DNA of 44,145 bases, taken from positions 1-44,145 of IMG/VR virus record IMGVR_UViG_3300031772_000066, one strand, 5' to 3'. Under the pieces are notes generated by a model. The model saw nothing but the letters and a program-made list of their open reading frames with translations, had not been told where the DNA came from and ran no database searches. This document shows, piece by piece, positions 3,261 through 41,518 of the stretch. Position 1 is the first letter of the stretch. Each line of letters opens with the position of its first letter. Source of the DNA: a virus. Made by a program: the position numbers and the translations under genes.

Positions 3261-3283
3261 GTAAGTTCAATAATTGAAATTAC
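3261..3283. repeat. Dispersed palindrome copy 1
   Basis: This 23-nt element has the core TTCAATAATTGAA with arms GTAAG and ATTAC. It lies 25 nt upstream of the ATG at 3309, between the large terminase and the next gene. It is the exact reverse complement of copies at 23831 and 41454. One G/A mismatch interrupts the otherwise perfect dyad. Confidence 0.9.
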
Positions 3284-3308
3284 TAAATAAAAGTAGGAGG
3301 AGGATAGT

Positions 3309-3629
3309 ATGAGTAACATTCACGGAGCTAGTTCAACAGTGGTGTTGGCAACGGGGGGAACAGGATTAGTAACTGTTGCTGGGAAAGCAGGGGTGTTGAG
3401 AGGGTATAGTTTAAAAATTGGGACAGATATATCTAAAGTAATTTTTAGGGATGGTGGTTCTGGGGGCACAATAAAATGGTCGGATGGTAATGTGGGAGTC
3501 ACAGTGGCTGGAGATGCATTTGTGAGACACTCTTTTAAAGAAGATGTGCCGTTCTCCACCGACATTTATGCTGCAGTAACAGGGACAGGTGCGATATTGT
3601 ATGCAGAGTTTGTGCAGATAGAAGATTAA
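3309..3629 (+). CDS. Small beta-rich virion-associated protein (106 aa)
   Basis: The protein is rich in Gly, Thr and Val, with alternating hydrophobic strands and almost no helix-forming segments, consistent with a small beta-sandwich. Its C-terminal part (VTGTGAILYAEF) resembles short hypothetical proteins common in phage head regions. I cannot assign a precise function. A capsid decoration or fibre-base role is plausible from its place between terminase and portal. A very strong AGGAGGAGG ribosome site and the palindrome at 3261 precede it, so it may be separately controlled. Confidence 0.75.
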   Translation: MSNIHGASSTVVLATGGTGLVTVAGKAGVLRGYSLKIGTDISKVIFRDGGSGGTIKWSDGNVGVTVAGDAFVRHSFKEDVPFSTDIYAAVTGTGAILYAEFVQIED

Positions 3630-3642
3630 GGAGGAGGTATAG

Positions 3643-3828
3643 ATGGCACCTCAAAGTTTTGATAATTGCAGAAAAGGTGGGGGAAAGATAAGGACGATAA
3701 ATCTTAAGGGTGGGAAGTATATGCATATCTGTATCTTGAATGGGAAGTCGTATAAGGGAGAGATTAAGAGTAAACAAGCGGAGAGTGGAAGTCCGGTAGC
3801 AAACGCTATTCAACAGAAGATGAAATAG
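3643..3828 (+). CDS. Small basic protein of unknown function (61 aa)
   Basis: AAGGAGGAGG lies just before the ATG. The protein is basic and Gly/Lys rich, with a 'GGKYMHICILNGKSYKGEIKS' style beta-hairpin (written here as a description of residues about 23-43) and no membrane segment. It sits between the beta-rich protein and the portal in one operon. No family is recognised. Confidence 0.65.
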   Translation: MAPQSFDNCRKGGGKIRTINLKGGKYMHICILNGKSYKGEIKSKQAESGSPVANAIQQKMK

Positions 3829-3836
3829 GAGAGAAT

Positions 3837-5576
3837 GTGAAAGCAGATATAGAGGATTGGGTAGAACTTATTCAACAGGGAGTTAGGTATAAAGAGAACT
3901 TTGGTAACTCCAAACGATGGAGTACGTATAGAGATTATGGGAGAGGGAAGTTTCCTGGCTACGTTGGGTCTAGTAGAGGGATTCTTCCTTACAATCTTGT
4001 ATATAGTATGAAGAGAGCGATGGTGCCAAATGTTTACTTCCGTAATCCATATATAAATGTGACACCAACTAGTAAGCCTGGTATCGACATTCAAGCACGT
4101 GTAGTTGAGGCGGTTGATAACTGGTTGATGGGGGAGTTGGGAATAAAGGCGACATTTAAAACGATGGTTCAAGATGCATATTACTGCACAAGAGGGATAG
4201 CTAAGATAGGCTACGATGGGTTGTGGAGTGAGAAGGTGACGGAAGAGGAGATGCAGTTATCAGAAGATTTAGGTATCCCCCTCTCTCATATGTCGAAGGA
4301 TAAAAAGGAGAGAGTTGAGTATAATGTAAATGTCAAGCCAGGGATGCCTTGGGCATCACGAATTATACCAGATGTATTTATAGTCCCTTTTGGAGTTAGA
4401 ACTTTAGAAGATTGTCCGTGGGTTGACCACGTCGTTCTTCGTTCATTAGCTGACGTCAAGGCGGATAGGAAGTATAAGAATACGGAGGGGTTGGAAGGAA
4501 CACATATGGAGATAATACATAAAGACCCAACTCGTTCTGACTTCTATAAAGAATTGTGTAGTAATGCGGATATTGTGGAGATACATGAAATTAGAGATTT
4601 TAAGAGGAAAGAGATAAAAGCGTTCGTGCCCGGATACGATAAGTGGATACGTCCTCCAACTGAAGATGTACTTCAAATAGAAGGACTTCCTTTTGTAGAC
4701 TTCACGTTTAATGAGGATGGGGAATATTATTGGGGACCGTCCGATGTCCAAATTATAGAACCACAACAACTGGAAATAAATGAGGCACGTACTCAAGCTA
4801 TGTTACATAGACGGATAGCGATGGTGAAGTTTTTGGTGGAGCAGAATGGGATGGCGGTAGAAGAGGTAGCGAAGATGTTATCGGAAGAGGTGGGACCTGC
4901 AGTCTTCACTAATGGAGACCCGAATAAGGTGGTGGCGTTACTTCAACCTCACATCCCTGCTGACCTCACTCAATGGTCGGAATTGATTAGGAGTGATGTG
5001 AGGGAACTTCTTGGACAAGGACGTCAACAATTAGGGGAGTCTCCTCCAGGTCGTCGTACCGCTGAGGAAATGAGAAATGTGCAGATGGCTACGGATACAA
5101 GGATGGATGAGAGAAGGGATATTGTAGCGGATGCACTAGTGTCGATGATGAGGAAAATCAATCAGATTATTTTTGAGAGATGGACTCAAGAGAAAGTGGC
5201 GCAGGTGGTGGGGTATGATGGGGCGAGGTATTGGGTGGCATATAAAGGGGCGGAGAATAGAGCGGAATACAACCTTAGGGTGGATGTGGAATCGATGACG
5301 CCTAAGACGAAGATGATGAAGAAACGTGAGATTGTAGAATTAATACAGGCTCTGTCGAAAAACCCTCGAGCGAATATAGACTATCTTATGAAGATGTTAT
5401 TGAGGGAATATGAATGGGTGGATGCTTTAAAAATATTTCCAGAGGCACCAGAAACGCAGGGTCAACCCATGCAACAACAGCAATTTATGCAACAACAACA
5501 AAAATTGTTAAATAATCCTGCAGAACTTCAGAAGAGAGCGGGAGCGAATGCGGAAACAATGGGGAGATTTTTCTAA
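3837..5576 (+). CDS. Portal protein (579 aa)
   Basis: The dodecameric portal forms the DNA-entry vertex, docks the terminase and later the tail. Length, position after the large terminase, and an N-terminal domain with aromatic and basic residues about 'YRDYGRGKFPGYVG' fit podovirus-type portals. A long helical stem region and a Gln-rich tail (residues about 545-560) follow; Gln-rich portal tails are common. Translation starts at GTG 3837, with AGGAG at 3827-3831 giving 5-nt spacing. The overlapping ATG at 3835 is immediately closed by TGA in another frame. Start choice is therefore GTG. Confidence 0.85.
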   Translation: MKADIEDWVELIQQGVRYKENFGNSKRWSTYRDYGRGKFPGYVGSSRGILPYNLVYSMKRAMVPNVYFRNPYINVTPTSKPGIDIQARVVEAVDNWLMGELGIKATFKTMVQDAYYCTRGIAKIGYDGLWSEKVTEEEMQLSEDLGIPLSHMSKDKKERVEYNVNVKPGMPWASRIIPDVFIVPFGVRTLEDCPWVDHVVLRSLADVKADRKYKNTEGLEGTHMEIIHKDPTRSDFYKELCSNADIVEIHEIRDFKRKEIKAFVPGYDKWIRPPTEDVLQIEGLPFVDFTFNEDGEYYWGPSDVQIIEPQQLEINEARTQAMLHRRIAMVKFLVEQNGMAVEEVAKMLSEEVGPAVFTNGDPNKVVALLQPHIPADLTQWSELIRSDVRELLGQGRQQLGESPPGRRTAEEMRNVQMATDTRMDERRDIVADALVSMMRKINQIIFERWTQEKVAQVVGYDGARYWVAYKGAENRAEYNLRVDVESMTPKTKMMKKREIVELIQALSKNPRANIDYLMKMLLREYEWVDALKIFPEAPETQGQPMQQQQFMQQQQKLLNNPAELQKRAGANAETMGRFF

Positions 5577-5578
5577 TA

Positions 5579-5803
5579 ATGAATAGAAAGAGGGTAGCTA
5601 TCATTTGTCAGACACACGGTTTCTTTCGTGGAGAACAGTGTCCAATCTGCCAACAGAAAAGGGAGAGTGAAGGAGTACATATAGAGGTGTTTAAACCTAT
5701 GGTGTATACGGATATATGCGACACCCCATTGTTGATAGAGTCGAAGAGACAACTTAGAGAAGAGTGTAAGAAACATAATGTGATTGCTGCAAGATTGTTA
5801 TAG
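5579..5803 (+). CDS. Zinc-ribbon-like small protein after portal (74 aa)
   Basis: Cys10, His13 and the CPIC pair (residues about 21-24) form a likely zinc knuckle near the N-terminus, followed by a helical C-terminal half with 'ESKRQLREECKKHN'. Similar small FmdB-like zinc proteins often follow phage portals, and I infer a morphogenesis or regulatory role. The ribosome site is weak (GGGGAG about 12 nt upstream), and the gene starts two bases after the portal stop, so it probably depends on translational coupling. Confidence 0.7.
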   Translation: MNRKRVAIICQTHGFFRGEQCPICQQKRESEGVHIEVFKPMVYTDICDTPLLIESKRQLREECKKHNVIAARLL

Positions 5804-5852
5804 AATAGTAGATTTGGAGTGATTACCAAGGGAGAGTTAGGGAGGGTGAAGG

Positions 5853-6077
5853 ATGGAAGAAGAGCGAAGTCAAGGAGAAGTTGTAGAGAAAGAGGAAGTG
5901 GATGCAAGACCAAAGGGGATTATTGTAATTAAAGTGTTTGAGAATAGTCCGTATGAGGTGGAGTTTGAGGGAGTGATTACTGGGGTGGAGATAGATATTG
6001 CATGGAAATCGATGATGAAAGAATACAGAATATGGAAGCATAGTTTATTTAAAGCGAATGAAAATGGAGGTAAGTAA
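5853..6077 (+). CDS. Small acidic protein before scaffold (74 aa)
   Basis: A GGGAGGG site precedes the ATG. The N-terminal 20 residues are highly charged, and the rest is a beta-strand region then a helix ending in basic residues. The last codon overlaps the scaffold start (TAATG). It resembles small unnamed proteins placed between portal and scaffold in many phages. Function is unknown. Confidence 0.65.
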   Translation: MEEERSQGEVVEKEEVDARPKGIIVIKVFENSPYEVEFEGVITGVEIDIAWKSMMKEYRIWKHSLFKANENGGK

Positions 6078-6799
6078 TGCCAAACGATGAAGCGAATGGT
6101 GGGGAAGGAAGTGGCGAAGGTAAAGGAGCTGCGGGCGATATCCAGCAGCAACTCACTGACCTAACAGCGAAGATGGCTGCGATGGAAGGGGAGTCGAAAA
6201 CATTAAAGGACGCGAAGGTTGACCTTGAACAGCGACTCGACGAAGCGGATAAGGAACTTCTCAGCGACGATTACCTCAACTTCAAAGAGAAGAGAGGTAA
6301 GGGTGCTTCCTCTAAAGATGGTGGAGAGGGAGAGATGGAGATTGATTTGGATAGGGCTTCTAATCGTGAAATCGTAGATTTTATTGAGAAGAAGTATAGA
6401 GGTGATGTTGATGCGGCTGTTAAAGACATCAAGGGTCAACTCGACCTAAATAAGCAGCAACTCGGGATGATTGCTGCCCAATTTGATGTGGCTTTAACGG
6501 AGCTTAGGCACGACGGTCGGGATGGGGAGCCGGGGTTCAAGGCTAACCAAAAAGAGATATTTGAAATCGCTAAGGCGAACCCGAAGTGGGGTGCTGAACA
6601 ATGTTACCACCAATTCTGTCTCCAATCAAAAGCAGACGCGGACAGTAAGTCCAAGGCTGACAGGAAGAAGGCTGAGGAGGAAGAGAAGGCAGCGACAGAG
6701 AGAGCTGGAGTGCCTGGTTCGACAGTCCAAGGAAAGCAGTTATCGAAAGAAGAAGCTGCAGCAATTGGATACCGAAAGGCATTTGGGAATAAAGAATAA
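6077..6799 (+). CDS. Scaffolding protein (240 aa)
   Basis: The protein is hydrophilic and mostly helical. Its Gly/Glu-rich disordered N-terminus is followed by a heptad coiled coil (about residues 24-60), an acidic middle and a Lys/Glu-rich C-terminal helix, which is the typical scaffold layout. It lies directly before the coat gene, as scaffolds do. It directs prohead assembly and then leaves or is degraded. Start overlaps the preceding stop. Identification rests on composition and position, not on sequence motifs. Confidence 0.75.
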   Translation: MPNDEANGGEGSGEGKGAAGDIQQQLTDLTAKMAAMEGESKTLKDAKVDLEQRLDEADKELLSDDYLNFKEKRGKGASSKDGGEGEMEIDLDRASNREIVDFIEKKYRGDVDAAVKDIKGQLDLNKQQLGMIAAQFDVALTELRHDGRDGEPGFKANQKEIFEIAKANPKWGAEQCYHQFCLQSKADADSKSKADRKKAEEEEKAATERAGVPGSTVQGKQLSKEEAAAIGYRKAFGNKE

Positions 6800-6816
6800 C
6801 TAAGGAGTTGTGAAAA

Positions 6817-7803
6817 ATGGCAATTGAACTTACGGAACAGCTAAACACAATGTACACGACTACCTGGTATCTTAGACGGAAGGAAGTGGTGGACCAGATT
6901 TTTAACGCCACGCCGTTTTGGTATTTGATGTCTAAGAAAGGGAAGAGGTCAACCCAATCAGGTGGGCGTTCGATAGAGATACCTTTGCAATATGCGAAAA
7001 ATGAAACTGTCACATTCATAGGTCGTGGCGGTACCGTAGCACTATCAGCAACTGACCCTCTAACTGTGGTTCATTGGAAGTGGAAGTATCTGACTGGTCA
7101 CATAATCAGGTATTTTGCGGATTTCCAGATGAACAGGGGACAGGCGCAGTTGATGAATAAGGTGAATGCGGATATTGATAACTTACAGAGTAGTTTGATT
7201 GATAAGTTGGAGACATCCTTATTTACGGCAGCTGGTGCAGGCACAGATATAGATGGGTTAGCGAACATCATCTCTATCACACCTACAACTGAGGCGGGTG
7301 GAGCGACAGGTGACCTCTCTCGGGTGACTTATCCGTGGTGGAGGAACAACTATAAGTCGATGAGTGGGGAGGCAGCATCAATTTATCTTCGTAAGAGGAT
7401 GAATACGATGTTTAATGATTGTGGACAACAAGGGGAGGGTGTGAGTAGGTTCCCTGATATTGTGGTGACTGCACAGAATGTGTATGAGATGTATGAGTCA
7501 GAAGCCTTAGAGATATCAAGGATTATGATTGCGGATAGGAAGATGGCAGATTTAGGTTTCGGTGATTTAGCTTTCAAAGGAAGACCGTTAACTTGGTCAC
7601 CATCCTGCCCATCGGGATATATGTACTTCCTGAACACATCTGTACTTGAGTGGGTGGCTGACCCAATAGAGAACTTCACACTTGGGGAGTGGTTACCGAT
7701 AGTAAATCAGCCACGTGATGTAGTGGCTCATACTATGACGGTTGGGAACTTTATAGCTTCTAACTTGAAGAGGTTAGGGGTTATTATTGCAATAGCCGAA
7801 TAA
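6817..7803 (+). CDS. Major capsid protein, HK97-fold type (328 aa)
   Basis: Position after the scaffold, length, and an N-terminal arm leading to a 'NATPFWYLMSKKGKR' segment and a beta strand with GGRSIEIPLQYAKNETV agree with HK97-fold coat proteins of podoviruses. A conserved-type C-terminal end ('VGNFIASNLKRLGVI') is also seen. It forms the icosahedral shell around the portal. AAGGAG lies 8 nt before the ATG. A run of three RNA hairpins follows the gene, which may stabilise its transcript. Confidence 0.85.
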   Translation: MAIELTEQLNTMYTTTWYLRRKEVVDQIFNATPFWYLMSKKGKRSTQSGGRSIEIPLQYAKNETVTFIGRGGTVALSATDPLTVVHWKWKYLTGHIIRYFADFQMNRGQAQLMNKVNADIDNLQSSLIDKLETSLFTAAGAGTDIDGLANIISITPTTEAGGATGDLSRVTYPWWRNNYKSMSGEAASIYLRKRMNTMFNDCGQQGEGVSRFPDIVVTAQNVYEMYESEALEISRIMIADRKMADLGFGDLAFKGRPLTWSPSCPSGYMYFLNTSVLEWVADPIENFTLGEWLPIVNQPRDVVAHTMTVGNFIASNLKRLGVIIAIAE

Positions 7804-7810
7804 TTTGGCA

Positions 7811-7880
7811 ACCGAACTTGACTCGGTAAATGTTAGTGATAGCTGGTCAGGTCAGTTATCAACATCTCCCTGAGGGGATG
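7811..7880 (+). other. Three consecutive RNA stem-loops after the coat gene
   Basis: Hairpin 1 pairs 7811-7815 with 7823-7827. Hairpin 2 pairs 7838-7845 with 7853-7860 (8 bp with one G-U). Hairpin 3 pairs 7863-7869 with 7874-7880 with a 4-nt loop. None has a T run, so they are not intrinsic terminators. They lie between the two presumably most expressed structural genes and end just before the ribosome site of the next one. RNA stability or processing is the likely role. Confidence 0.5.
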
Positions 7881-7893
7881 AAAGGAAAAAGAA

Positions 7894-8691
7894 ATGGCTA
7901 GAGTGTTAGGAGCAGATAGTGCAGCAATAGTTCTTAACCAAGATATCTATGAGATATCAGCTACGGCGAAGCATAGGTTAGGGACTAGAGTACAACGTGG
8001 AGATAGAGTATATAGGTATGGGAAGGCTGGTGCAGCGATGACTAGTAATGCTGTAGCTTGTTGGAGTATCTATAATCAAACTATCGCATCTAGTTCAGTT
8101 CAAGCAGCAGCTCCAGCAGGACAGAACTATGTATATGTTACTGTTGGGAGTAGTGAAGGTCTAGCGAATAATGGAGTCTTCGCTAAAGACGATTTAGCAG
8201 GTGGGAGTATCTTACTCGCATTGACTAGTGGATATGGAGAGATATTTAACTTCATGATTACAGGCAATGACGCGTTAGCTTCAGCAGGAACTCTAAAGAT
8301 ATATTTGGATGGAGAGTTACCTGTAGCATTGACTACATCCAGTTATGTAGAAGCTCATGCATCTATCTACTCTGATGTAAGACATGGTGATATGGGTGGA
8401 TTTGCTATGTGTCTGGGAGTATCGATGAGGTTACTTACAGCAGCTGCTCCTTACGGATGGATACAGACATGGGGACCGTCGTGGTTAGCATCACAACCAG
8501 CTGTAGGTCTTGGTGCTCATGCACAAGAGGCTGTGTTTAGAGATGATGGGTCTATTGGTCTAAGGACTGATGCTACTGCCCCTGGTGGTACTGCTTACAC
8601 TATAAATGGGCAGACTGCAGGAGTTGTTATGTGTCATGCACAGAATAATACACAAGGTGCTCCATTTCTTTTCTTGCAAGTTGCACCTTAA
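7894..8691 (+). CDS. Putative capsid decoration/accessory head protein (265 aa)
   Basis: The protein is Ala/Gly/Thr/Ser rich, predicted beta-rich, without signal or membrane segments. It contains conserved-looking aromatic patches ('YGWIQTWGPSWLA'). Immediate position after the coat gene, and being flanked on both sides by RNA hairpins, suggests an abundant virion protein such as decoration or cement protein. I recognise no named family. The AAAGGA ribosome site lies 8 nt before the ATG. Confidence 0.65.
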   Translation: MARVLGADSAAIVLNQDIYEISATAKHRLGTRVQRGDRVYRYGKAGAAMTSNAVACWSIYNQTIASSSVQAAAPAGQNYVYVTVGSSEGLANNGVFAKDDLAGGSILLALTSGYGEIFNFMITGNDALASAGTLKIYLDGELPVALTTSSYVEAHASIYSDVRHGDMGGFAMCLGVSMRLLTAAAPYGWIQTWGPSWLASQPAVGLGAHAQEAVFRDDGSIGLRTDATAPGGTAYTINGQTAGVVMCHAQNNTQGAPFLFLQVAP

Positions 8692-8698
8692 CATAATC

Positions 8699-8728
8699 GA
8701 GATGGGAGGCAGAGATGTCTCCCATCTC
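8699..8728 (+). other. Perfect 10-bp RNA hairpin after the decoration gene
   Basis: GAGATGGGAG (8699-8708) pairs perfectly with 8719-8728 around a 10-nt loop. There is no following T run, so efficient intrinsic termination is unlikely. Reduced read-through, mRNA 3'-end protection or RNase III cleavage are possible. Confidence 0.6.
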
Positions 8729-8759
8729 CTTAATCAATTAAACGAAAAGGAGAACGAAA

Positions 8760-9032
8760 ATGGGATTGAGGAGTCAGGTTATAGACACTGTATTCAAAGG
8801 TAATGCAGACCCGCTCTCTAACATTCTTCATAATACGAAAGGAGTAGCTACCGACCCGCAGACATTGGTATTAGTTGCACCAAGAGGAACCTTCTTTTGT
8901 ATGGTTAATTGTGGAACTGCAGATGATGATGATGATGTATACATCAATACTGATGGTGCTTCTGCTTGGACTAAGATTTATGATGGGGGCACTTCAGGAC
9001 ACCACCTCTATCTACCTACAGTCGCACCATAA
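8760..9032 (+). CDS. Small head/neck protein of unknown function (90 aa)
   Basis: AAAAGGAG precedes the ATG. The sequence is beta-rich with an Asp run (residues about 55-59) in 'NCGTADDDDDVYINTDG' and ends in Pro-Thr-Val-Ala-Pro, similar in style to the end of the preceding protein (LQVAP). The shared tail suggests related virion proteins. No known family is recognised. Confidence 0.7.
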   Translation: MGLRSQVIDTVFKGNADPLSNILHNTKGVATDPQTLVLVAPRGTFFCMVNCGTADDDDDVYINTDGASAWTKIYDGGTSGHHLYLPTVAP

Positions 9033-9036
9033 AGAT

Positions 9037-9399
9037 ATGGCAAGTATATTCGATGCGGTAGTTATGGAAGAGTCTGCAGGCAACCCTCTAGCTGCTTCTA
9101 TTAAAGGAGCGAGAGGGTTGATGCAGATTACTCAACCAGCTATTGACGATTATAACACATATAATCGTCAAAAGATGACAATGGATGATATGTGGGATAG
9201 TGGAAAGAATAAGACGGTTGGGGAGTGGTATCTTGCAGACCGTATACCTAAAATGTTAAAGGCGTATAAGTTACCAGTTACAACAGAAAATATATTGTGG
9301 GCATATAATGCGGGGATAGGGAATGTGGTGAAGGGTATAAAGCCGAAGGAGACGGTGGCGTATATAGATAAAGTGATGGGTAGGGTTAAGGAGAAGTAG
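9037..9399 (+). CDS. Lytic transglycosylase, SLT fold (120 aa)
   Basis: This is a compact murein-cleaving domain. Glu12 begins the signature ESAGNPxAxSxxGAxGLMQI (residues 12-31), and the AYNAG motif follows near residue 90. Such enzymes cleave the glycan strand between MurNAc and GlcNAc. Placement among head-neck genes points to a virion-borne activity for DNA entry, though a lysis role cannot be excluded because no other endolysin was found. I start at ATG 9037, four bases after the previous stop; an upstream in-frame extension to 8875 would run inside the preceding gene and is unlikely. Confidence 0.88.
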   Translation: MASIFDAVVMEESAGNPLAASIKGARGLMQITQPAIDDYNTYNRQKMTMDDMWDSGKNKTVGEWYLADRIPKMLKAYKLPVTTENILWAYNAGIGNVVKGIKPKETVAYIDKVMGRVKEK

Positions 9400-9401
9400 A
9401 G

Positions 9402-10094
9402 ATGGCTATGGTATTAGCGGACTTTGTAAGTGAGGTTAGGGAGAATATAAAGAGGGATACGACAGGAGTAGCGGATGTGAGAGTAGAGAGGTGGGTGAAT
9501 TGGGCGCAGGGATACCTCTCGGACTTACATACGTATAAGGAGATGAGGAAGTCAGATGCCACTTCCTTCACAACGGATGGGGATAATTCGTTAGCTTGGC
9601 CGACTCGGATGAAGGATTTGTATTCAATCACAGTGCAGGATGGGAGTAGGTCGAGGAAGTTGATATATGTGAAGGCGAGAGATTTCGACACCATCATCCC
9701 ACGAGCAGCCATATATAGTGAAGGATTGCCAGAGTGGTATGTGGACTTTGGGTCGACATTCGAACTATTCCCCATCCCAGATGCGAAGTATTTCTTAAAT
9801 AGACGATGGAGTCAACACCCTATCGACTTAACTGTTGGGGTGGCGTCTCCGTTGTTGAGGAAAGATGCATTGATAACTGCGATGGCAACCGTGTTTGGGT
9901 TCTATACTCTGCGGGAGATAGAGGATGCGGGGTATTGGGGAGGGGAGATTGTGCCAGCTTTATATGAGGCGAGTTTGACTGGAGACCACTCAGGGGAGGA
10001 TTGGGTACCGGTGGCGAGAGGATTTAAGATTGGAAATACAACTAGTTTAAGTGGACAATGGTGGCTCAATCCATTTACTGGGCGTAATGTTTAG
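9402..10094 (+). CDS. Head-tail adaptor/connector-like protein (230 aa)
   Basis: AAGGAG lies 7 nt before the ATG. The N-terminal helices ('VSEVRENIKRDTTGVADVR...W', about residues 9-33), a central beta region with 'LPEWYVDFGSTFELFP', and a C-terminal helical part match the general form of podoviral gp6/gp4-type adaptors that sit beneath the portal. Position after the portal/coat block supports this. Its stop codon overlaps the flank of the palindrome at 10091. Confidence 0.65.
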   Translation: MAMVLADFVSEVRENIKRDTTGVADVRVERWVNWAQGYLSDLHTYKEMRKSDATSFTTDGDNSLAWPTRMKDLYSITVQDGSRSRKLIYVKARDFDTIIPRAAIYSEGLPEWYVDFGSTFELFPIPDAKYFLNRRWSQHPIDLTVGVASPLLRKDALITAMATVFGFYTLREIEDAGYWGGEIVPALYEASLTGDHSGEDWVPVARGFKIGNTTSLSGQWWLNPFTGRNV

Positions 10095-10119
10095 TAAGTT
10101 CAATTATTGAAATTACTAA
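10091..10119. repeat. Dispersed palindrome copy 2, extended form
   Basis: The 23-nt unit at 10094-10116 has core TTCAATTATTGAA with arms GTAAG and ATTAC, extended by TTA and TAA on the two sides to a 29-nt dyad. It lies 25 nt before the ATG at 10142. It is the reverse complement of the copy at 29671. Confidence 0.9.
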
Positions 10120-10141
10120 ATTTAGTTAAAGGAGAGTAAAA

Positions 10142-10441
10142 ATGTCACTATATAAAGAGATAACTTTTAAAGGGGTTGTGTGTAACTACCATAAAATTTG
10201 GAGTATAGATGGAGAGTTTGCTGTACAGTCTCCCAACTCTAATGAATACACCTCTATAAATGTGGAAGTAGCATTGTATAAAGATGAAGCTACTCGTGCA
10301 ATAAATGTAGGTAACTACCTGAGGTTGAAGGAGTATCATTTTTTACACGACACACCTAACGCTCCTGTTAATGAGAGTATTACGAAAGTGTATAAAGCAC
10401 TTAAGCATTTGCCAGAGTTTAATGAAGCAGTTGATGTTTAA
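10142..10441 (+). CDS. Small protein of unknown function (99 aa)
   Basis: AAAGGAGAG precedes the ATG. The N-terminal 60 residues are beta-rich with aromatic residues, followed by a helical tail. It fits between adaptor and fibre genes and is the first gene after palindrome copy 2. The beta-strand portion resembles small phage tail-completion-region proteins in style, but no family can be assigned. Confidence 0.7.
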   Translation: MSLYKEITFKGVVCNYHKIWSIDGEFAVQSPNSNEYTSINVEVALYKDEATRAINVGNYLRLKEYHFLHDTPNAPVNESITKVYKALKHLPEFNEAVDV

Positions 10442-10465
10442 CAATCCGTGAAGGGGGAGGAAGAG

Positions 10466-10858
10466 ATGGCTATATCTAAGCGACCAATGGTTGGGGGTGC
10501 ATTCTATAAAGGGTATGTCCTGGCGGTAGGAGCAGCGCCTGGTGACCACGTCCTCAACCTTATGGTGATGGCGGATAAATCCTGTGCCTTAAATGGGATA
10601 ACGGTGGTGCCAGAAAAGTATGGTGCTCTCGACCACTTCAAACTAGAACACATCAATTCTAGTGGAGTGGTGGTGGCGTTGATTGTGGATAATGTATATA
10701 ATGTAGGTGCACATATAGCTTGGCTCTTCGATTTCCCCTCCCTTGAGTTGATGGAGGCAGGAGATATATTTCGGCTAACGTATACAAATGTGGCAGGGGT
10801 GGCTATGAATGTATACATCAATCTAGAGAGATTAACTACGAAGGATGGAGGAATGTAA
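10466..10858 (+). CDS. Beta-rich virion protein of unknown function (130 aa)
   Basis: I place the start at ATG 10466 because GGGGGAGG at 10453-10460 lies inside the longer reading frame that begins at GTG 10448. The protein is hydrophobic and strand-rich with an 'AGDIFRLTYTNVAG' C-terminal segment like phage jelly-roll or decoration domains. It overlaps the next start by TAATG. A structural role in neck or fibre is inferred from context. Confidence 0.72.
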   Translation: MAISKRPMVGGAFYKGYVLAVGAAPGDHVLNLMVMADKSCALNGITVVPEKYGALDHFKLEHINSSGVVVALIVDNVYNVGAHIAWLFDFPSLELMEAGDIFRLTYTNVAGVAMNVYINLERLTTKDGGM

Positions 10859-11400
10859 TGGGACAGACCGCGATGGGGGCTGGTGGTGAAGAAGACTTAG
10901 GAGTAAAGGTGATAACTCAAAAGTTGGATAAGAAGATTGTGTTGGAGGATGTGGAGATTAGGACGAAGGTGGTGGAGATACAAGTCCCTCGTTTTGTAGA
11001 TAAAATTGTGGAGTTACCAATCTATAAAAATAAAGAGATTGTGGTGACGGATGTGAAGGTGGTGGAGAGAGAGGTAGAGACACAAACTTTCAAACTACAT
11101 GAGAATTTGGTGGAGATAGATAAGCCATATTATAAAGAGGTGGTGGTAGAGGTGCCTCGTTTCGTTAACAAAGACATCATCAATCCTATCTTTAAAGATA
11201 CAGAAGTGATGAGAGAAGTATTGAAGGTGGTGGAGAAGATAAAAATAGAAGAAAAAGTGGTAGAAGTAACTACCTATAAATTGGTGGAAGAGATAGTGAA
11301 AGTGCCTAAGATACAGTATATTCCAACGGAAGTGGAGAGAGTGGTGTGGAAAGATGTTCCTCGTGAACGGTGCAGTCATTGTGGGAAGGGGATAGAGTGA
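10858..11400 (+). CDS. Alveolin-like Val/Glu/Lys repeat protein with C-terminal CxxC (180 aa)
   Basis: The chain is almost entirely short alternating strands such as VVEIQVPRF and EIVKVPK. Two units of about 51-54 residues (38-88 and 95-148) are clearly related: VPRFVDKIVELPIYKNKE and VPRFVNKDIINPIFKDTE. This EKxVEVP-type pattern resembles alveolin repeats of protist cytoskeletons and similar repeats in some bacterial and phage proteins. It ends with CSHC (172-175), a possible zinc knuckle. It probably forms an extended fibrous or sheath-like part of the particle; function is not established. TAATG links it to the upstream gene and GTGA to the downstream one. Confidence 0.75.
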   Translation: MGQTAMGAGGEEDLGVKVITQKLDKKIVLEDVEIRTKVVEIQVPRFVDKIVELPIYKNKEIVVTDVKVVEREVETQTFKLHENLVEIDKPYYKEVVVEVPRFVNKDIINPIFKDTEVMREVLKVVEKIKIEEKVVEVTTYKLVEEIVKVPKIQYIPTEVERVVWKDVPRERCSHCGKGIE

Positions 11401-12059
11401 GTATTAGGATAGAAGATTACTTTGGAGATGCACCATCAGATGGAACAATGTATGGTCAAAGGAATGGTGCTTGGGAAAGAATAACTTTAATGCCCCCAGT
11501 GGATGAATACTGGGATATTACGGAAGGACTACCTCCTACTCCTGAAGAAGGAGATAGATATATTTCTGATGGAACAGATGAAGACTTAGGTTGGTATGAT
11601 GGATATGTCTATGAGTGGACTGATGGGGAATGGATAGAATCAATACCTGTAGAAGGTTGGATGGTGTGGTTAATATTTGAAATGGTATTCTGGGTTTTCT
11701 TCTCTGGAGGTTGGATGGAAATGGGAGATGGTTCATTCTTAAGACTTGATGGAACAAATTCACCATCAGCAGACATATATTCAAGTTATGGATTTATTAT
11801 ACGTAGTCTTGGAATAACTGGACCTGAAGGTGATGGATTGGTTACCTTTACTCTTGCAGGAGCATATACAGCGGATGTAACAGTTCCAACTGAAAGCGGG
11901 AAACTTGCATTACAAACAGATATTCCAGACTTTGAAACCGACTCCCTCTCTCTACACCTCAACCAATCCACCCCCCAACGAGTAATCAATGACGCCCCGC
12001 ATTTTGATGGGGGGATTAAAATAAAGTCAGGACAGAAACTAATACTGGATGGAGATTAA
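11397..12059 (+). CDS. Tail fibre protein with DUF2793-like domain (220 aa)
   Basis: The segment about residues 40-95 (pattern P-x-x-GDRYISDGT...GWYDGYVYEWTDGEW...PVEGW) matches the DUF2793-type module seen in phage fibres, Trp- and Gly-rich with repeated short strands. The C-terminal half resembles fibre shaft sequence. I start at GTG 11397, after AAGGGG, overlapping the upstream TGA as GTGA; the longer frame from GTG 11370 would overlap the preceding gene further. It probably contributes to receptor binding. Confidence 0.72.
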   Translation: MSIRIEDYFGDAPSDGTMYGQRNGAWERITLMPPVDEYWDITEGLPPTPEEGDRYISDGTDEDLGWYDGYVYEWTDGEWIESIPVEGWMVWLIFEMVFWVFFSGGWMEMGDGSFLRLDGTNSPSADIYSSYGFIIRSLGITGPEGDGLVTFTLAGAYTADVTVPTESGKLALQTDIPDFETDSLSLHLNQSTPQRVINDAPHFDGGIKIKSGQKLILDGD

Positions 12060-23827: not shown

Positions 23828-23856
23828 TTAGTAATTTCAATTATTGAACTTACTAA
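23828..23856. repeat. Dispersed palindrome copy 3, extended form
   Basis: The 23-nt unit at 23831-23853 has core TTCAATTATTGAA with arms GTAAT and CTTAC, extended by TTA and TAA. It lies 29 nt before the ATG at 23883, between ejection proteins 1 and 2. It is identical to the copy at 41454 and the reverse complement of the copy at 3261. Confidence 0.9.
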
Positions 23857-29482: not shown

Positions 29483-29646
29483 TACTTAATCCCATCTAAT
29501 AAAAATTCAGTATTGACTGCTGTCACACACAACCTCATCAATTCCTTTATTTGTGTATTACTCATTCTCTGAACTCTCCTCTTTCCATCCCACACCTTCT
29601 CCTTCGCTTTACCCAACCAATCATCATATAGAATGATTTGCATCAT
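29470..29646 (-). CDS. Small convergent protein (58 aa)
   Basis: AAAGGA lies 7 nt before the ATG at 29646. The protein starts MMQIILYDDWLGKAKEKVW and is helical and basic. It is the last gene of the leftward operon and overlaps the end of the PurD-like gene by 13 nt, tail to tail. Palindrome copy 4 lies 24 nt upstream of its start. Function unknown. Confidence 0.7.
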   Translation of the reverse strand: MMQIILYDDWLGKAKEKVWDGKRRVQRMSNTQIKELMRLCVTAVNTEFLLDGIKYQIK

Positions 29647-29670
29647 CTTACTATCCTTTCGTTAAAGTTA

Positions 29671-29693
29671 GTAATTTCAATAATTGAACTTAC
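29671..29693. repeat. Dispersed palindrome copy 4
   Basis: Core TTCAATAATTGAA with arms GTAAT and CTTAC. Read on the minus strand it stands 24 nt before the start of the 29470-29646 gene. It is the reverse complement of the copy at 10094. Its end overlaps the stop codon of the upstream minus-strand gene. Confidence 0.9.
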
Positions 29694-34098: not shown

Positions 34099-34248
34099 CT
34101 ATCCTTTCAACCACATCACATTCCAGTTAATTAACGCAGATAACAAATAGAAGTAACCCTTTGCTGGCTCCTTATATATAAATGATACAAGGCTAGCTCC
34201 AACAAACACTCCCACCACCATCCATTGAAAGATGTATTTACACCACAT
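34099..34248 (-). CDS. Small membrane protein (49 aa)
   Basis: This frame starts 11 nt before the methyltransferase stop, with GAGG-type sequence upstream. It has two hydrophobic stretches (about residues 9-24 and 32-41) and a C-terminal MWLKG. The segment would otherwise be a 145-nt gap in a tightly packed operon. Likely a small phage membrane peptide; function unknown. Confidence 0.6.
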   Translation of the reverse strand: MWCKYIFQWMVVGVFVGASLVSFIYKEPAKGYFYLLSALINWNVMWLKG

Positions 34249-35518
34249 CCTCTACCACCTCTTCCTCCCCTTTCTTCAACGCTTCCAACCTCAACACCCC
34301 TTGATTGCAGTATTCCTTATCTATATCACAACTCCACCCATTCCTTTTCATCTCCAATGCGCTAATCAAAGTTGAGAACGACCCTCCATACGGGTCTATC
34401 ACCAACTCTCCCGCTTGACTACTCTGCTCTATCATCTTCCTTATCATCATCCTTGGCTTCTCAGTAGGATGCACCTTCCTTTGAGGAGCCACTCTCGGCT
34501 CCAACCACACATTTGATTGACCCAACTTATTTAATGGACGTCTCCCTTTCATACAGAAGAAGAATGCCTCATAATTCGACGCATATGCATATTCACTTCC
34601 TCCCGCTCCTCCTCCCCCACTCTTATGCCAGATACAAGGAACAGGATTAACATTAAATCCCGTATCCCTCAACATCTTCAACAAATACTCATAATGTTGA
34701 ATACCAAACCAAATATACATGTGACGGTCATCCTTCAACACTCTATAACACTCTCTCACAACAATAGATATATTATTCATCACCCTCTCTACCTCATCAT
34801 CTTGTTGATACACCTTCCCCGCCCACGCATCAATAGATTTAAAGTCTTTATCCAAATTGATTGCATACTGAGGGTCAGTAAACACAAGGTCAACACTGTT
34901 CGACTTCAACTTCCTCATCTCCACCTCATTATTCCCACACACTATACACTTCGTATCTATCTCTATCTTCACCCTCTCCGCTAACTCATCCGTATACAAC
35001 CTCTCCTTCATCTTCTGAAATCTCTTCCATGCTGCATCCTTACTTGCCTCTCGTCCAATATCTGGAAACTCTTCTATCGCTCTCGCAAGTCGCAAATCAC
35101 GGCTAACAGTACCAATAGAATCACCAACACTATCAGCTGTGTCTCGTATCGACCACCCCCCACCATGTCCTTTAATTGCACTTCCATACAACTCCCTCTT
35201 TATCTTGTCTATCTCATTCTTCGCTTTAACTTCTTCTTGCCACGTAAAATCCTTCCTCTTTAAATTCTCCTCTATCTCAATCTCCCTCTTCTCAAGTTCC
35301 GTCATCTCCTTCAACTGCTTCACCTCAATCTCCGTAATCCCCAGAAGTCGATGCGCTTTTAACCTCCTCTCCCCCGCAATCAAATTCAACTCATTATCCA
35401 CCACAATTGGATGGAGTAATCCATACCTCTGAATTGAGACAGCCAACTCCTCTATCTCTCCATAATCATCCCTAAACCTCTCCGCTGCTATCTTCACCTG
35501 GTCTACTCTAACTCTCAT
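34238..35518 (-). CDS. ParB-domain DNA methyltransferase (426 aa)
   Basis: Residues about 5-90 are a ParB-N/sulfiredoxin-like domain with the ligand loop NLIAGERRLKAHRLLG. A helical, HTH-like linker (SIRDTADSVGDSIGTVSRDLRLA, about 123-145) follows. The methyltransferase has TDPQY at 214-218 (catalytic motif IV) before the AdoMet motif IDPYGGSFS at 374-382, the beta-class order of adenine-N6/cytosine-N4 enzymes. It may protect DNA from restriction, mark packaging or replication, or bind specific sites. ATG 35518 has AAGGAGAG upstream and overlaps the previous stop; ATG 35557 lies inside that gene. Confidence 0.88.
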   Translation of the reverse strand: MRVRVDQVKIAAERFRDDYGEIEELAVSIQRYGLLHPIVVDNELNLIAGERRLKAHRLLGITEIEVKQLKEMTELEKREIEIEENLKRKDFTWQEEVKAKNEIDKIKRELYGSAIKGHGGGWSIRDTADSVGDSIGTVSRDLRLARAIEEFPDIGREASKDAAWKRFQKMKERLYTDELAERVKIEIDTKCIVCGNNEVEMRKLKSNSVDLVFTDPQYAINLDKDFKSIDAWAGKVYQQDDEVERVMNNISIVVRECYRVLKDDRHMYIWFGIQHYEYLLKMLRDTGFNVNPVPCIWHKSGGGGAGGSEYAYASNYEAFFFCMKGRRPLNKLGQSNVWLEPRVAPQRKVHPTEKPRMMIRKMIEQSSQAGELVIDPYGGSFSTLISALEMKRNGWSCDIDKEYCNQGVLRLEALKKGEEEVVEDVV

Positions 35519-35883
35519 ATCTCTCCTTGTTTTAACATAAAGTTGATTGCGTTGCATTCTTCTCCAGATAGTTGGATAGAAGAAAACTCTTCTATCTCAA
35601 ACTGTTTTATATCTACTTCCACTTCCGTCTCCAAAAATGCCTCAAACTCCTTTTCAAACACCTCCGCATTTTCTGGCGTCACCGTCCACGTCTTCTTCTT
35701 CTCATCCTCTTTTCCAAACTTCTTCACCAACTCTACTCTACTCTTATTTATATCTCTCAACTCCCTCTCCACCCTATCCACATCTCTCCCCACCCAATAC
35801 GCTAATTTGATAGGTAAATCTTTACTCGCCACCTTCATTATCGCTTTTTGACTATCCCACAACTTTCTCAGTTTAACTTTCAT
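35515..35883 (-). CDS. Coiled-coil protein of unknown function (122 aa)
   Basis: TAGGAG precedes the ATG. An N-terminal KVKLRKLWDSQKAIMKVASKDLPIKLAYWVG segment (described here, residues about 2-33) and a charged helical middle part match small phage proteins of unknown role that lie beside replication genes. Its stop overlaps the methyltransferase ATG. A tRNA-like structure lies just upstream. Confidence 0.75.
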   Translation of the reverse strand: MKVKLRKLWDSQKAIMKVASKDLPIKLAYWVGRDVDRVERELRDINKSRVELVKKFGKEDEKKKTWTVTPENAEVFEKEFEAFLETEVEVDIKQFEIEEFSSIQLSGEECNAINFMLKQGEI

Positions 35884-35908
35884 ATCTTCTCCTATTTTAT
35901 TTTAGTGA

Positions 35909-35970: not shown

Positions 35971-35983
35971 ATTACTGAATGTT

Positions 35984-36006
35984 GTAATTTCAATTATTGA
36001 AATTAC
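35984..36006. repeat. Dispersed palindrome copy 5, perfect dyad
   Basis: Core TTCAATTATTGAA with arms GTAAT and ATTAC. This is the only copy with a perfect 11-bp dyad around the central base. It lies between the DUF669-like gene and the tRNA-like element, 100 nt before the next start codon. The TAACTTT flank follows it on the plus strand, opposite to the surrounding genes. Confidence 0.9.
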
Positions 36007-36020
36007 TAACTTTCTTACTC

Positions 36021-36434: not shown

Positions 36435-36477
36435 TTTGTCTCTCCTTTTTACACCACTGGTTAACTACACTCACTTC

Positions 36478-36705
36478 CTATTCGTTACTTTCTTTGCCTG
36501 TCCCACCTCCTCTCTCCCTTTGTATATGTTCTTTAATCTCCTCTTGTATCGGCTTCCCACAAAAACCACAAAACTTTCCTATAATACTCACTTCATTCTC
36601 ACAATGTGGACACATCAACATACCATTTATACTCTTCTTCCCACATCTCCAACAGAACTTCTCACCACATAATACCGAACATTCTGGACAGTAGTTATTT
36701 AACAT
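36478..36705 (-). CDS. Double zinc-ribbon protein (75 aa)
   Basis: Four Cys pairs (CPEC, CWRC, CPHC, CGFC) form two consecutive zinc ribbons, followed by a charged helix. This resembles small zinc-ribbon proteins seen across bacteria. It overlaps the homing endonuclease end by 11 nt. Ribosome site is weak (GGAAAAG). Function unknown. Confidence 0.7.
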   Translation of the reverse strand: MLNNYCPECSVLCGEKFCWRCGKKSINGMLMCPHCENEVSIIGKFCGFCGKPIQEEIKEHIQRERGGGTGKESNE

Positions 36706-37156
36706 CTTTTCCAGTTACCACCTTTCCTTTAGTATTTAAACTTCTTATCTTGTTAGCAATTGTTCTACTTAAGTCACCAATTGGTTGGTTCTTCCCTTCT
36801 AACTCTCTTTGTTTAATATATTCTAACATCCAATATGCTTGTTCTTGTTTGCCTACTAAATACTTTTGTATCATTCTTAAATAAATTTCTATCTCGAAAT
36901 AGTTAGTTATCCTAACTTGATATGCATCTTTGTGGTTAGACGCAATATCTCTTTTTAGTATTTGAATAGCAGGTTGGATATTCATCTCTTTCATTAAATC
37001 CATTGTATGATAAGCAATTTTAGTGTCTGTAGAACTAACACATACATTCACACTATATCCTATTTTTTCTCTATCATATTTATGAACTTCACAAAGAGTA
37101 ATAGTTCCCTCTCCATCAATAATTCCTGCTAACCAACCTAAATCAGATTCTGTCAT
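36695..37156 (-). CDS. LAGLIDADG homing endonuclease (153 aa)
   Basis: The single motif LAGIIDGEG at residues 9-17 is the family signature, with Asp14 and Glu16 at catalytic positions. One motif in 153 aa suggests a homodimer. It overlaps the Sak4-like stop by ATGA. Its codons are more AT-rich than its neighbours, and the adjacent 3' part of the ATPase gene shares that bias. It is a free-standing mobile gene, not in an intron or intein as far as can be seen. Confidence 0.85.
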   Translation of the reverse strand: MTESDLGWLAGIIDGEGTITLCEVHKYDREKIGYSVNVCVSSTDTKIAYHTMDLMKEMNIQPAIQILKRDIASNHKDAYQVRITNYFEIEIYLRMIQKYLVGKQEQAYWMLEYIKQRELEGKNQPIGDLSRTIANKIRSLNTKGKVVTGKDVK

Positions 37157-38023: not shown

Positions 38024-38108
38024 TATCTCCACCTCCCCCTCTTCCACACGCCACCCCAAATAGAAACATAACCACCACCACTAACGCGAGAGCTAAATCA
38101 AATGGCAT
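38004..38108 (-). CDS. Putative small lipoprotein (34 aa)
   Basis: GAGG lies 6 nt before ATG 38108, which overlaps the nuclease end. The chain reads MPFDLALALVVVVMFLFGVAC and then Gly-rich, charged residues. GVAC resembles a lipobox, so lipid attachment at Cys21 is possible. Hydrophobic h-region length is normal, but the n-region lacks a basic residue. It could be a membrane peptide instead. It overlaps the next gene by 20 nt. Confidence 0.5.
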   Translation of the reverse strand: MPFDLALALVVVVMFLFGVACGRGGGGDSGTQSS

Positions 38109-38907: not shown

Positions 38908-38925
38908 CTTTCCCTCCTCTTTTTC

Positions 38926-39075
38926 TTATATAACTATCAATATAAACCCAACCCCTAACCTCACCCACCTCCCAATATCAAGCAACCACTCGTGCTTGTT
39001 TCGTTCTGTCTTTAAACTCCAAAGTCCATCAATCACCATCAGTAAACCCAGTAAACATATTATTTTATCTCTCAT
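38926..39075 (-). CDS. Small two-segment membrane protein (49 aa)
   Basis: GGAGG lies 5 nt before ATG 39075, which overlaps the preceding stop (ATGA). Two hydrophobic parts flank a charged middle: IICLLGLLMVIDGLW and LGVGFILIVI at the end. Function unknown. Confidence 0.65.
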   Translation of the reverse strand: MRDKIICLLGLLMVIDGLWSLKTERNKHEWLLDIGRWVRLGVGFILIVI

Positions 39076-40061: not shown

Positions 40062-40239
40062 TTAGTTTTCCTCCAATCCAAATTCTTTCAATTATGCTTT
40101 TTAGCCCGTGTTTATCTATGTAGGAAATTACATAACCTATACTAAATACAAAACACAAAAGAAACAGAACCATTAACCCTATTATTAACCACGGAAATAC
40201 TTCCCAAAACAACATTCCAAGTTTATATTTTAGTTCCAT
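40054..40239 (-). CDS. Single-pass membrane protein (61 aa)
   Basis: AGGGAGG and the cassette AAAACTAA precede the ATG. A long hydrophobic stretch (about residues 14-40) is followed by a basic C-terminus. It overlaps the next start by 8 nt. Function unknown. Confidence 0.65.
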   Translation of the reverse strand: MELKYKLGMLFWEVFPWLIIGLMVLFLLCFVFSIGYVISYIDKHGLKSIIERIWIGGKLNG

Positions 40240-40416
40240 TTAGTTTTCCTCCCTCTGTCTATTCTCTTCTTCCTGTTCTCGCTGTCTTTCTTCTTCTCTT
40301 TGTCTTTCCCGCCGTTCATAACCTTCGGGGTCTTTATCATAGAAATCCTGATTTTCTCTAATGCGACTAATAATCTCTGGTGTCATTACGCAATCTAAAA
40401 ACTTGGGTCTACTCAT
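40240..40416 (-). CDS. Small charged coiled-coil protein (58 aa)
   Basis: ATG 40416 follows the GAAAGGAAAACTAAG cassette, which decides the start. The C-terminal half is Glu/Arg/Gln repeats (REEERQREQEEENRQREE), a strongly charged helix. The frame is open upstream to ATG 40461, which overlaps the previous stop, so a 73-aa form is possible. Function unknown. Confidence 0.55.
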   Translation of the reverse strand: MSRPKFLDCVMTPEIISRIRENQDFYDKDPEGYERRERQREEERQREQEEENRQREEN

Positions 40417-40460
40417 CTTAGTTTTCCTTTCGTGGGGTTGGTTCATTACTTTTTTACTCA

Positions 40461-40742
40461 TTAAACCTCGCCTTCTTTCCAAACATACTCATTAGCAATA
40501 TCCTCAAATATCCTTGTCATTTCAAAATCTGACTTAATTGACTTCGCAAAACATAAGGTAATTCTTGGTTCCGTGGGTGCGTATAATATTTTTAAATTAC
40601 TAACATAATGTCCTGCTTCTGTAATTATGGCACTTAAAATATAAACTCCAGAATTTTCATACGGTGGTATAGTTCCACCAGTTTGAATTTGGCATTCCCT
40701 TATAGCTTTACATAAGTAATCAACTCTTTCTTTGCTTATCAT
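40461..40742 (-). CDS. Small soluble protein (93 aa)
   Basis: ATG 40742 overlaps the preceding TGA. A GTG at 40757 in the same frame is too close to AAAGG to be efficient. The N-terminal helix, a central 'GVYILSAIITEAGHYVSNLKI' region and a C-terminal helical region are seen. No family recognised. Confidence 0.6.
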   Translation of the reverse strand: MISKERVDYLCKAIRECQIQTGGTIPPYENSGVYILSAIITEAGHYVSNLKILYAPTEPRITLCFAKSIKSDFEMTRIFEDIANEYVWKEGEV

Positions 40743-40921
40743 TTTATCAACCCGCACCTTTCTATAGGAATTTTAGAATCTCCCATTTCAATTATCCATA
40801 AAGCACAGTCTTTGCCAAGACATTTAACCTTACACAAATCTTCGTTACCATCTGTGTTTTCTGTTACACCTTTAAACCTACTTCTAATTATTTCGCTCAT
40901 CATAGGACATATTTTACCCAT
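40739..40921 (-). CDS. Small Cys-rich protein (60 aa)
   Basis: AGGAG lies 6 nt before the ATG. Cys at residue 5 and a set near 30, 34, 39 and 56 (LCKVKCLGKDCALW) could hold zinc or an iron-sulfur cluster. Overlaps both neighbours by a few bases. Function unknown. Confidence 0.6.
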   Translation of the reverse strand: MGKICPMMSEIIRSRFKGVTENTDGNEDLCKVKCLGKDCALWIIEMGDSKIPIERCGLIK

Positions 40922-41228
40922 TTATTCTCCTTTCTATCTCTTGAATCACTGAGTTGAATTTGATTATTAACATAGCGTATAAAACTATTGCCTGACCTCT
41001 TTCCTTACAATCACCTTTTGGAAAATACTCATCTACTAAATCAATACCAATATTCTTTATTTCTTCTTCGCTCGGCAACATCCCCAAATAAAATTCCTTA
41101 TAGAGTGCGTCTAGTTGGGTGTGGGCAGACTTAATATCCTTCTGCTTATACTTCTCATTAGACTTTGCTTTATCGTGATACTGCCCTGCTTCATATATTC
41201 CTTCCAACACCGCTCTAACTTTATCCAT
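40914..41228 (-). CDS. Helical protein of unknown function (104 aa)
   Basis: Start overlaps the preceding stop (TAATG), and GGAGAG lies just upstream. The product is mostly helical and charged, with a hydrophobic segment near residue 80-90 (GQAIVLYAMLIIKF). No family recognised. Confidence 0.65.
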   Translation of the reverse strand: MDKVRAVLEGIYEAGQYHDKAKSNEKYKQKDIKSAHTQLDALYKEFYLGMLPSEEEIKNIGIDLVDEYFPKGDCKERGQAIVLYAMLIIKFNSVIQEIERRING

Positions 41229-41518
41229 TAGCCGCTCTCCTTCAATCCATGTTCTTTCTCATTCTCCCTAATCTTCCTCTCTACACTCTGCACACTCTGC
41301 ATCAACGCCATCTTTACCGACAATAAATTATCTTCACATAGAGATAGTGCAAATTTAGTAATCTTCTTCCCCATCTCTTCTACTGCTGTATGATATTGCT
41401 GGAGAGATAATGACCGTGCATCCACTTTTGGTTGAGTGTCAGTTTTTGGTTTAGTAATTTCAATTATTGAACTTACGACTTCCTTTGGCTTCTTTCTGGC
41501 TCCAATTTTAGCTTTCAT
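41228..41518 (-). CDS. Helical protein carrying palindrome copy 6 in its coding sequence (96 aa)
   Basis: ATG 41518 is overlapped by the previous TGA and has GAGG 8 nt upstream; a GTG at 41527 is less likely. The N-terminus is basic (KAKIGARKKPKE); the remainder is helical. Palindrome copy 6 encodes VSSIIEIT near residues 14-22, so a DNA signal is kept inside codons. Function unknown. Confidence 0.65.
   Translation of the reverse strand: MKAKIGARKKPKEVVSSIIEITKPKTDTQPKVDARSLSLQQYHTAVEEMGKKITKFALSLCEDNLLSVKMALMQSVQSVERKIRENEKEHGLKESG
41454..41476. repeat. Dispersed palindrome copy 6, inside a gene
   Basis: Core TTCAATTATTGAA with arms GTAAT and CTTAC, identical to the copy at 23831. It lies 42-64 nt inside the coding sequence of the 41228-41518 gene, the only intragenic copy. 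Confidence 0.9.

Follow-up and report, generated by a model that had tools for sequence, protein, structure and literature searches.

Among the closest described systems, KorB of RK2 silences as a sliding clamp from operators (OB) that are distant from promoters, and OB is described as a 16-bp sequence, in the portion of PMC11790492 available to us. In Caulobacter ParB, R173 bonds with guanine 1 of parS, and in Noc a Gln reads adenine (PMC7383237, available in part). Phage fusions of a ParB-CTPase domain to an N6/N4 methyltransferase have also been described; in the accessible part of PMC12704722 they are reported to be commoner in phages, with enrichment in prophage regions, their function is called open and perhaps anti-defence, and a section heading states that nucleotide specificity is not reliably predicted by sequence or AlphaFold3. 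Here we analyzed a 44,145-bp stretch of viral DNA (IMG/VR record IMGVR_UViG_3300031772_000066, positions 1 to 44,145; "the window" herein means this whole stretch), which carries six near-identical 23-bp palindromes and encodes a fusion of ParB, helix-turn-helix (HTH) and methyltransferase domains. We put at about 0.8 the probability that the palindromes are parS- or OB-like binding and loading sites of the phage's own fusion protein, clamp mechanism included, a reading drawn from sequence comparison.

All six copies matched the pattern GTAAKTTCAATWATTGAAMTTAC with 0 mismatches (3261, 10094, 23831, 29671, 35984 and 41454), no seventh copy was present in the window even when as many as 3 mismatches were allowed, and the pattern occurred 0 times in 100 dinucleotide shuffles. 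The first-pass annotation of the window had described these palindromes at these positions, the identities among them, and distances of 25, 25, 29 and 24 nt from copies 1–4 to an ATG, all of which were borne out: copies 1, 3 and 6 are the same sequence (copy 1 inverted), copies 2 and 4 are the same sequence inverted, and copy 5 is a perfect dyad. The fifth pair is mismatched in five of the six. These sites and two degenerate copies are arranged as follows.

864..886: ATAATTTCAACCATTGAAATTTT, a degenerate copy within the early region on the left
3261..3283: copy 1, GTAAGTTCAATAATTGAAATTAC, 11 nt past the terminase large subunit (TerL) gene and 25 nt before ATG 3309
10094..10116: copy 2, 25 nt before ATG 10142
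23831..23853: copy 3, 29 nt before ATG 23883
29671..29693: copy 4, at a convergent junction ~300 nt past the primase gene and 24 nt before the minus-strand ATG 29646
35984..36006: copy 5, the perfect dyad, upstream of both the small gene 35515-35883 and the fusion gene
41454..41476: copy 6, in frame within the start of the minus-strand open reading frame (ORF) 41228-41527 (MKAKIGARKKPKEVVSSIIEITK...)
43747..43769: degenerate copy ATAATTTTAAAGATTGAATTTAT, near leftward early genes

The degenerate copies at 864 and 43747 scored 23.1 and 22.0, respectively (highest score in shuffles, 12.0), by a weight matrix built from a set that included both. The spacing at copy 4 refers to a 58-aa minus-strand ORF starting at 29646, and copy 5 lies ~100 nt ahead of a small gene that itself precedes the fusion gene. 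When the copies were folded as RNA, copy 5 reached −11.8 kcal/mol (z −7.45), and the other five, each with an internal mismatch, gave −4.1 to −9.5 kcal/mol. Copies 2 and 3 were moderate (z −2.17 and −2.67) and copies 1, 4 and 6 were not stable relative to shuffles; hence only copy 5 forms a strongly stable hairpin.

The proposed reader of the palindromes and its neighborhood comprise the following features. Residue numbers follow the longer ORF 34238-35557, and the start is possibly ATG 35518.

34238..35557, minus strand: ParB-HTH-DNA methyltransferase fusion (Pfam ParB_N and N6_N4_Mtase), the proposed palindrome reader
35222..35515, minus strand: ParB CTPase-type N domain (residues 15-112), which contains the motifs GERR and ENxxR
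35069..35149, minus strand: HTH, residues 137-163, with recognition helix 148-163, from structure models
34274..34960, minus strand: N6/N4 methyltransferase domain (residues 200-428), in which motifs IV (DPQY) and I (PYGGSF) are altered
35515..35883, minus strand: small gene between copy 5 and the fusion gene, with a weak YolD-like match below cut-off

Since a structure search with the whole protein gave mostly methyltransferases, residues 1-203 were modelled and searched separately. In these model searches, residues 12-102 matched nucleotide-bound M. xanthus ParB (7bnk; Z 15.7, root-mean-square deviation (rmsd) 1.4 over 90 residues), residues 13-190 matched Caulobacter ParB (6t1f; Z 13.2, rmsd 3.7, 157 residues) and residues 12-199 matched KorB (8qa9; Z 12.3, rmsd 6.0, 170 residues). 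The C-terminal part of the whole-protein model matched CcrM (6pbd; Z 24.7, rmsd 2.6, 210 residues). A central HTH is present in AlphaFold models of the fusion, and its first recognition-helix residue is 148. Both ENxxR and GxRR occur in 65/65 aligned homologues and motif IV is retained as DPPY/F/W in 57/65, some of these homologues being nearly identical to one another. With the NCBIfam model parB_part (TIGR00180, cut-off 58.45 bits), the window protein scored 39.8 and its relatives L063 and L201 scored 72.7 and 62.1. The ParB domain retains the nucleotide-binding motifs of CTP clamps, and on the basis of these motifs clamp loading and sliding would be the likely mechanism.

The palindromes are conserved beyond the window. 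An exact scan of IMG/VR for the 23-mer yielded 25 stretches that carry it; the same scan of species-genome contigs gave no match, nor did a megablast of window 1-24000 against phages. Among the matches listed, the palindrome is exactly conserved at equivalent places in relatives that are ~64-80% nucleotide-identical, with copy 1 found after TerL in L005 and L010, copy 2 in L009 and L010, and copies 3 and 4 both at the same place in L006. The first-pass annotation had named the loss of the palindromes from equivalent positions in related phages as grounds for abandoning its interpretation, and related phages keep them. The counterpart of copy 6 in G002 (L016 8850) is also in frame, as judged by eye, and sites stand upstream of the fusion gene in G002, G013, G017 and G019. 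Among 19 palindrome-bearing records the fusion was seen in five. It is whole in G002 (88%), G013 (77%), G017 (58%) and G019 (44%) and partial in G009, a record of almost the same phage as G019.

To extend the comparison to other phages, we located at least 545 ParB-methyltransferase loci and kept 80. The near-complete set consisted of 33 fusion-encoding records of at least 38 kb, including 26 of 32 long records chosen by length and similarity, and is not a random sample; each record was compared with the maximum of ten order-2 Markov nulls. Families of 23-bp palindromes exceeded their own null in 29/33 records and had at least four copies in 24/33; even-length families (22 or 24 bp) reached four copies in 5/33. 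The family sequences are odd-centered, dispersed and often quite different between phages. For instance, Desulfofustis phage LS06-2018-MD01 (OP947158) carries nine copies of a 23-bp palindrome of the CTATGTCCCAAATTGGGACATAG type, and 23-bp palindromes occur eight times in G025, sixteen in G048, fifteen in G032 and thirteen in G044. In G037, one of the five records with even-length families, the site is clearly 24 bp long through one extra central base, and this CTTTGTTCAAAATTTTGAACAAAG-type palindrome occurs 12 times. Many distantly related phages very probably share this arrangement, each with a matched protein and site sequence.

The control phages T7, VpV262 and CVT22 had a maximum of two copies at 23 bp. 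At shorter lengths controls did exceed their nulls (T7, 6 vs 2 at 14 bp; VpV262, 5 vs 3 at 15 bp). Five further records have a related primase and lack the fusion (G058-G062), although G058 has a weak methyltransferase-only match. Two of these, G058 and G060, had no family and a maximum of two copies at 23 bp. Palindrome families are present in G061 and G062, whose contigs end in or beside PolA, adjoining the position expected for the fusion gene. Separately, VpV262, a phage without a dispersed 23-bp family, encodes an annotated ParB-like nuclease-domain protein, ORF41 (L319 18577-19437).

We next considered where the sites lie. Genes were called by a simple ORF-based method in 29 near-complete records; of the 281 strong sites there, 170 (60%) were intergenic, with 23 (8%) expected. 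In evenness, the spacing exceeded both uniform placement (median quantile, 0.04) and random intergenic gaps (median quantile, 0.0095; 28 records); since the records are related, the combined spacing p-values are not independent. Relative to particular genes, a site occurred no more than 300 bp beyond the primase gene in 23/48 records (3.3 expected; median distance, 17 bp), no more than 300 bp beyond TerL in 7/15 (0.9 expected), and no more than 600 bp upstream of the fusion gene in 18/48 (5.8 expected).

This last placement bears on an alternative in which the binder is the same and the sites serve mainly as operators, the fusion being a KorB-like global transcription regulator that acts locally near promoters and on its own operon. 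Such a role would fit copies 1–4 ahead of start codons, the degenerate sites near the divergent early region, and the precedent of KorB, which is both a CTP clamp and a long-range repressor in the available portion of PMC11790492. However, the sites are strongest at gene 3′ ends, as at primase and TerL, and are spread across structural genes. The proximity to start codons described in the first-pass annotation applies to copies 1–4 and is not general in relatives, where gene junctions dominate. Sigma-70 promoter-like matches in window 1-12000 numbered 29 vs 26.9 in shuffles, so no promoter link is claimed. We regard a mainly operator role as a real possibility at somewhat less than even odds. 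As a side observation, a 12-of-12 sigma-70 match (TTGACA, 16 nt, TATAAT, with TG before) lies at 291-318 on the plus strand, ahead of gene 373-603.

If the fusion reads the palindromes, site and recognition helix should vary together. Mantel tests used 58 non-redundant records and column-wise covariation used 49, the records with weak or even-length families having been dropped from the latter (MICRO, G030, G033, G035, G037, G041, L287, L265 and L267). With the other proteins removed, the partial Mantel correlation of site distance with HTH distance was r 0.196 (p 0.004); no significant correlation was obtained for the ParB N domain (0.061, p 0.136) or the methyltransferase (0.063, p 0.182). 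The outer arms of the site follow phylogeny. Upon column-wise analysis, residues 147 and 149 were the top two of 380 columns for site position 8, residue 149 ranked second for position 7, and residues 152 and 148 ranked third and eighth for position 6. A G at position 6 (G6) occurred in 7/8 records with His148 and in 3/41 others (Fisher 1e-5, a value uncorrected for relatedness or for discovery by eye). When the HTH was excluded from tree building, His148 appeared, as judged visually, to have been gained about six times, five of them with G6 beside sister branches with neither. Residue 148 aligns with ParB residue 173 through a G-K-S-x motif, in an alignment made here by motif.

Because the His148-G6 pairing had first been spotted by eye, a prediction was recorded beforehand and then tested on new records. 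We listed 24 and examined 23 (not G051), of which 15 had a countable family, that is, at least 3 copies and above null, a rule fixed only after the families were seen. G6 was found in 2/2 countable His148 records (in G054 by plurality only) and in 0/8 countable records with other residues outside the K/R clade. Within the K/R clade, flagged beforehand as a possible exception, G6 was found in 4/5, and the fifth record has Pro148 and T6. The first-pass annotation had proposed a phage-wide binding or processing signal and had hinted at the ParB-methyltransferase as the binder. Taken together, the fusion-palindrome association and the helix covariation support binding and this candidate binder; RNase III-type processing did not hold up, as discussed below.

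Several results weigh against this assignment. The partial Mantel correlation for PolA was as large as that for the HTH (r 0.191, p 0.006; primase, −0.168). Covariation summed over all site positions was not concentrated in the HTH (p 0.97, 49 records); as expected of an HTH reading a palindromic site, covariation of residue 148 with base 6 is present, yet the whole-site signal does not single out the HTH. L271 has His148 without G6, and so does L265, one of the records dropped for a weak family. Among the new records, no countable family was found in G078, G079, G083, G085, G087, G088 or G045. Of these, G078 (His148, 11.6 kb) has an uncounted family of two with C at position 6, and G079 (His148) showed no palindrome family. 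In G081, also His148, the unmasked family is a tandem array with T at position 6; with the array masked and a looser palindrome threshold we obtained CTATGGTGAA..., with G at position 6, which was likewise uncounted. The G081 array itself spans 29498-29678 and repeats a palindromic unit of the GGTCCT-AGGACC type every 36 bp.

Other points against it concern the occurrence and spacing of the sites. MICRO (Microcystis phage Mel-JY34), G031 and G035 encode the fusion and showed no palindrome family, and in the window taken alone the spacing did not reach significance for evenness (quantiles, 0.09 and 0.07). The fusion was not seen in 14 of the 19 palindrome-bearing records, most of which are fragments of 4.7-19 kb. 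In the three longer ones examined, the neighboring region is missing from the contigs: PolA and primase are likewise absent from G005 and G015, and the G006 contig starts beside PolA. G059 (32 kb, possibly incomplete) is the one counterexample among the fusion-less control records, with four window-like sites and no fusion at the expected place; its polymerase appears as two overlapping frames. Lastly, the methyltransferase motifs are altered in the window phage and G002 (DPQY, PYGGSF), unlike in the close relative G013, which retains DPPF, and in the window they look degenerate. Both the window phage and G002 nevertheless carry six exact sites, and selection thus seems to preserve binding even in phages that may have lost methylation.

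Some of these results would suit a second alternative, in which the palindromes are stoperator-like operators of another phage repressor and the ParB-methyltransferase is a bystander. The site sequence also tracks phage relatedness, as the PolA correlation indicates, and G059 has sites without the fusion. On the other hand, the convergent His148-G6 pairing and its out-of-sample test implicate the recognition helix of the fusion, and we consider a separate repressor improbable. More improbable still is that the phage is a plasmid-like prophage with a genuine ParABS partition system. The ParB fold, the parS-like sites and the site core in G053, TGTTTCATCATGAAACA, which resembles canonical bacterial parS with a changed center, would fit such a system. 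Opposed to it, the sites are spread over the whole genome, and no ParA family (PF13614) exceeded the cut-off in any of 26 records, some of them possibly fragments, while all 14 control genomes match; the weak ParA signal in G032 reached 22.2 bits vs a cut-off of 27. The least probable alternative, in which the palindromes act as RNA hairpins cleaved by RNase III or processed in a similar way, could draw on the folding of copy 5 and, moderately, of copies 2 and 3, and on copies 1–4 preceding start codons, but is disfavored by the weaker folding and fifth-pair mismatches of the other five copies, by sites at gene ends and inside a gene, and by inner bases that vary with the recognition helix.

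Returning to the palindromes as loading sites of the fusion, comparison across genomes supports the sites themselves, their conservation, their association with the fusion, the recognition-helix covariation and the even intergenic placement across the group. From these we infer dimerization, nucleotide use, sliding, genome coverage, methylation and regulation. The fusion would bind as a dimer, with one recognition helix per half-site and residue 148 near base 6. A closed clamp would then load at each site and slide over neighboring DNA, and the spaced sites would allow the protein to cover the phage genome. In cis, the attached methyltransferase could then modify phage DNA. Control of its own operon and of genes nearby would be a further role of the bound protein. 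A tentative extension, which we rate as rather unlikely, is self-marking, whereby the fusion loads at spaced sites, slides and methylates the phage genome in cis and not that of the host. Rapid change of site and recognition helix would in that case confine each system to the genome that encodes it. Where the methyltransferase motifs are degenerate, as in the lineage of the window phage, the clamp may be retained as a scaffold that coats the genome or serves regulation.

In the layout of the window, terminase, portal and major head are among the rightward genes, and Sak4, the fusion, DNA polymerase and primase are among the leftward ones. In the structural half, a 1275-aa protein (24558-28385, plus strand) contains a second ParB_N-like segment at residues ~482-549, with PHROG ParB-like matches. 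In the replication module, 36695-37156 on the minus strand has a weak LAGLIDADG homing-endonuclease match. The window ends (1-100 and ~44030-44145) are similar, non-identical stretches in which a long A run is followed by CTGTCCGAAGAGCTATCC, like diverged terminal repeats.

While the fusions are already known in print, the candidate sites proposed for them from genome comparison are what is added here. The word stem "palindrom-" has 0 occurrences in the available text of PMC12704722, and we found no report of binding sites for ParB-methyltransferase fusions in the open-access literature, most subscription papers and all preprints lying outside that scope. A large group of the phage fusions whose function is called open in the accessible part of PMC12704722 gains concrete, genome-encoded candidate DNA sites, together with a residue-to-base prediction and dozens of natural protein-site pairs. 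If the assignment is true, phage genomes without recognizable ParA join partition and plasmid silencing as settings for ParB-type loading sites. What the fusions do also becomes open to direct testing through assays of binding, clamp formation and the methylome.

As for known systems, the L5 stoperators, N15 dispersed partition sites and T7 RNase III sites, which the first-pass annotation had offered as analogues, are likewise short signals repeated across a phage genome. They differ from the window palindromes in relying on other proteins or on RNA processing, and to our knowledge none has a ParB-methyltransferase reader. KorB has many dispersed OB sites with a 13-bp odd-centered core, and we know of no methyltransferase on KorB. 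The phage sites are odd as well, at 23 bp, with one central base more than parS. KorB and the phage fusion have in common a ParB-type CTPase fold (fold match 8qa9) and an HTH; they differ in that KorB works with KorA, in the portion of PMC11790492 available, and in that the phage sites are 23 bp long and usually occupy gene junctions. The chromosomal ParB-parS and Noc-NBS systems share the same N domain and HTH, and residue 148 aligns by motif with the specificity residue 173 (PMC7383237, available in part), whereas no ParA over cut-off was found in the 26 phage records. In the fusion, the C-terminal position that the dimerization domain occupies in canonical ParB is taken by the methyltransferase. 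The fusions described in PMC12704722, as far as its available text goes, have the same domain make-up as the window protein, and sites for them are proposed here.

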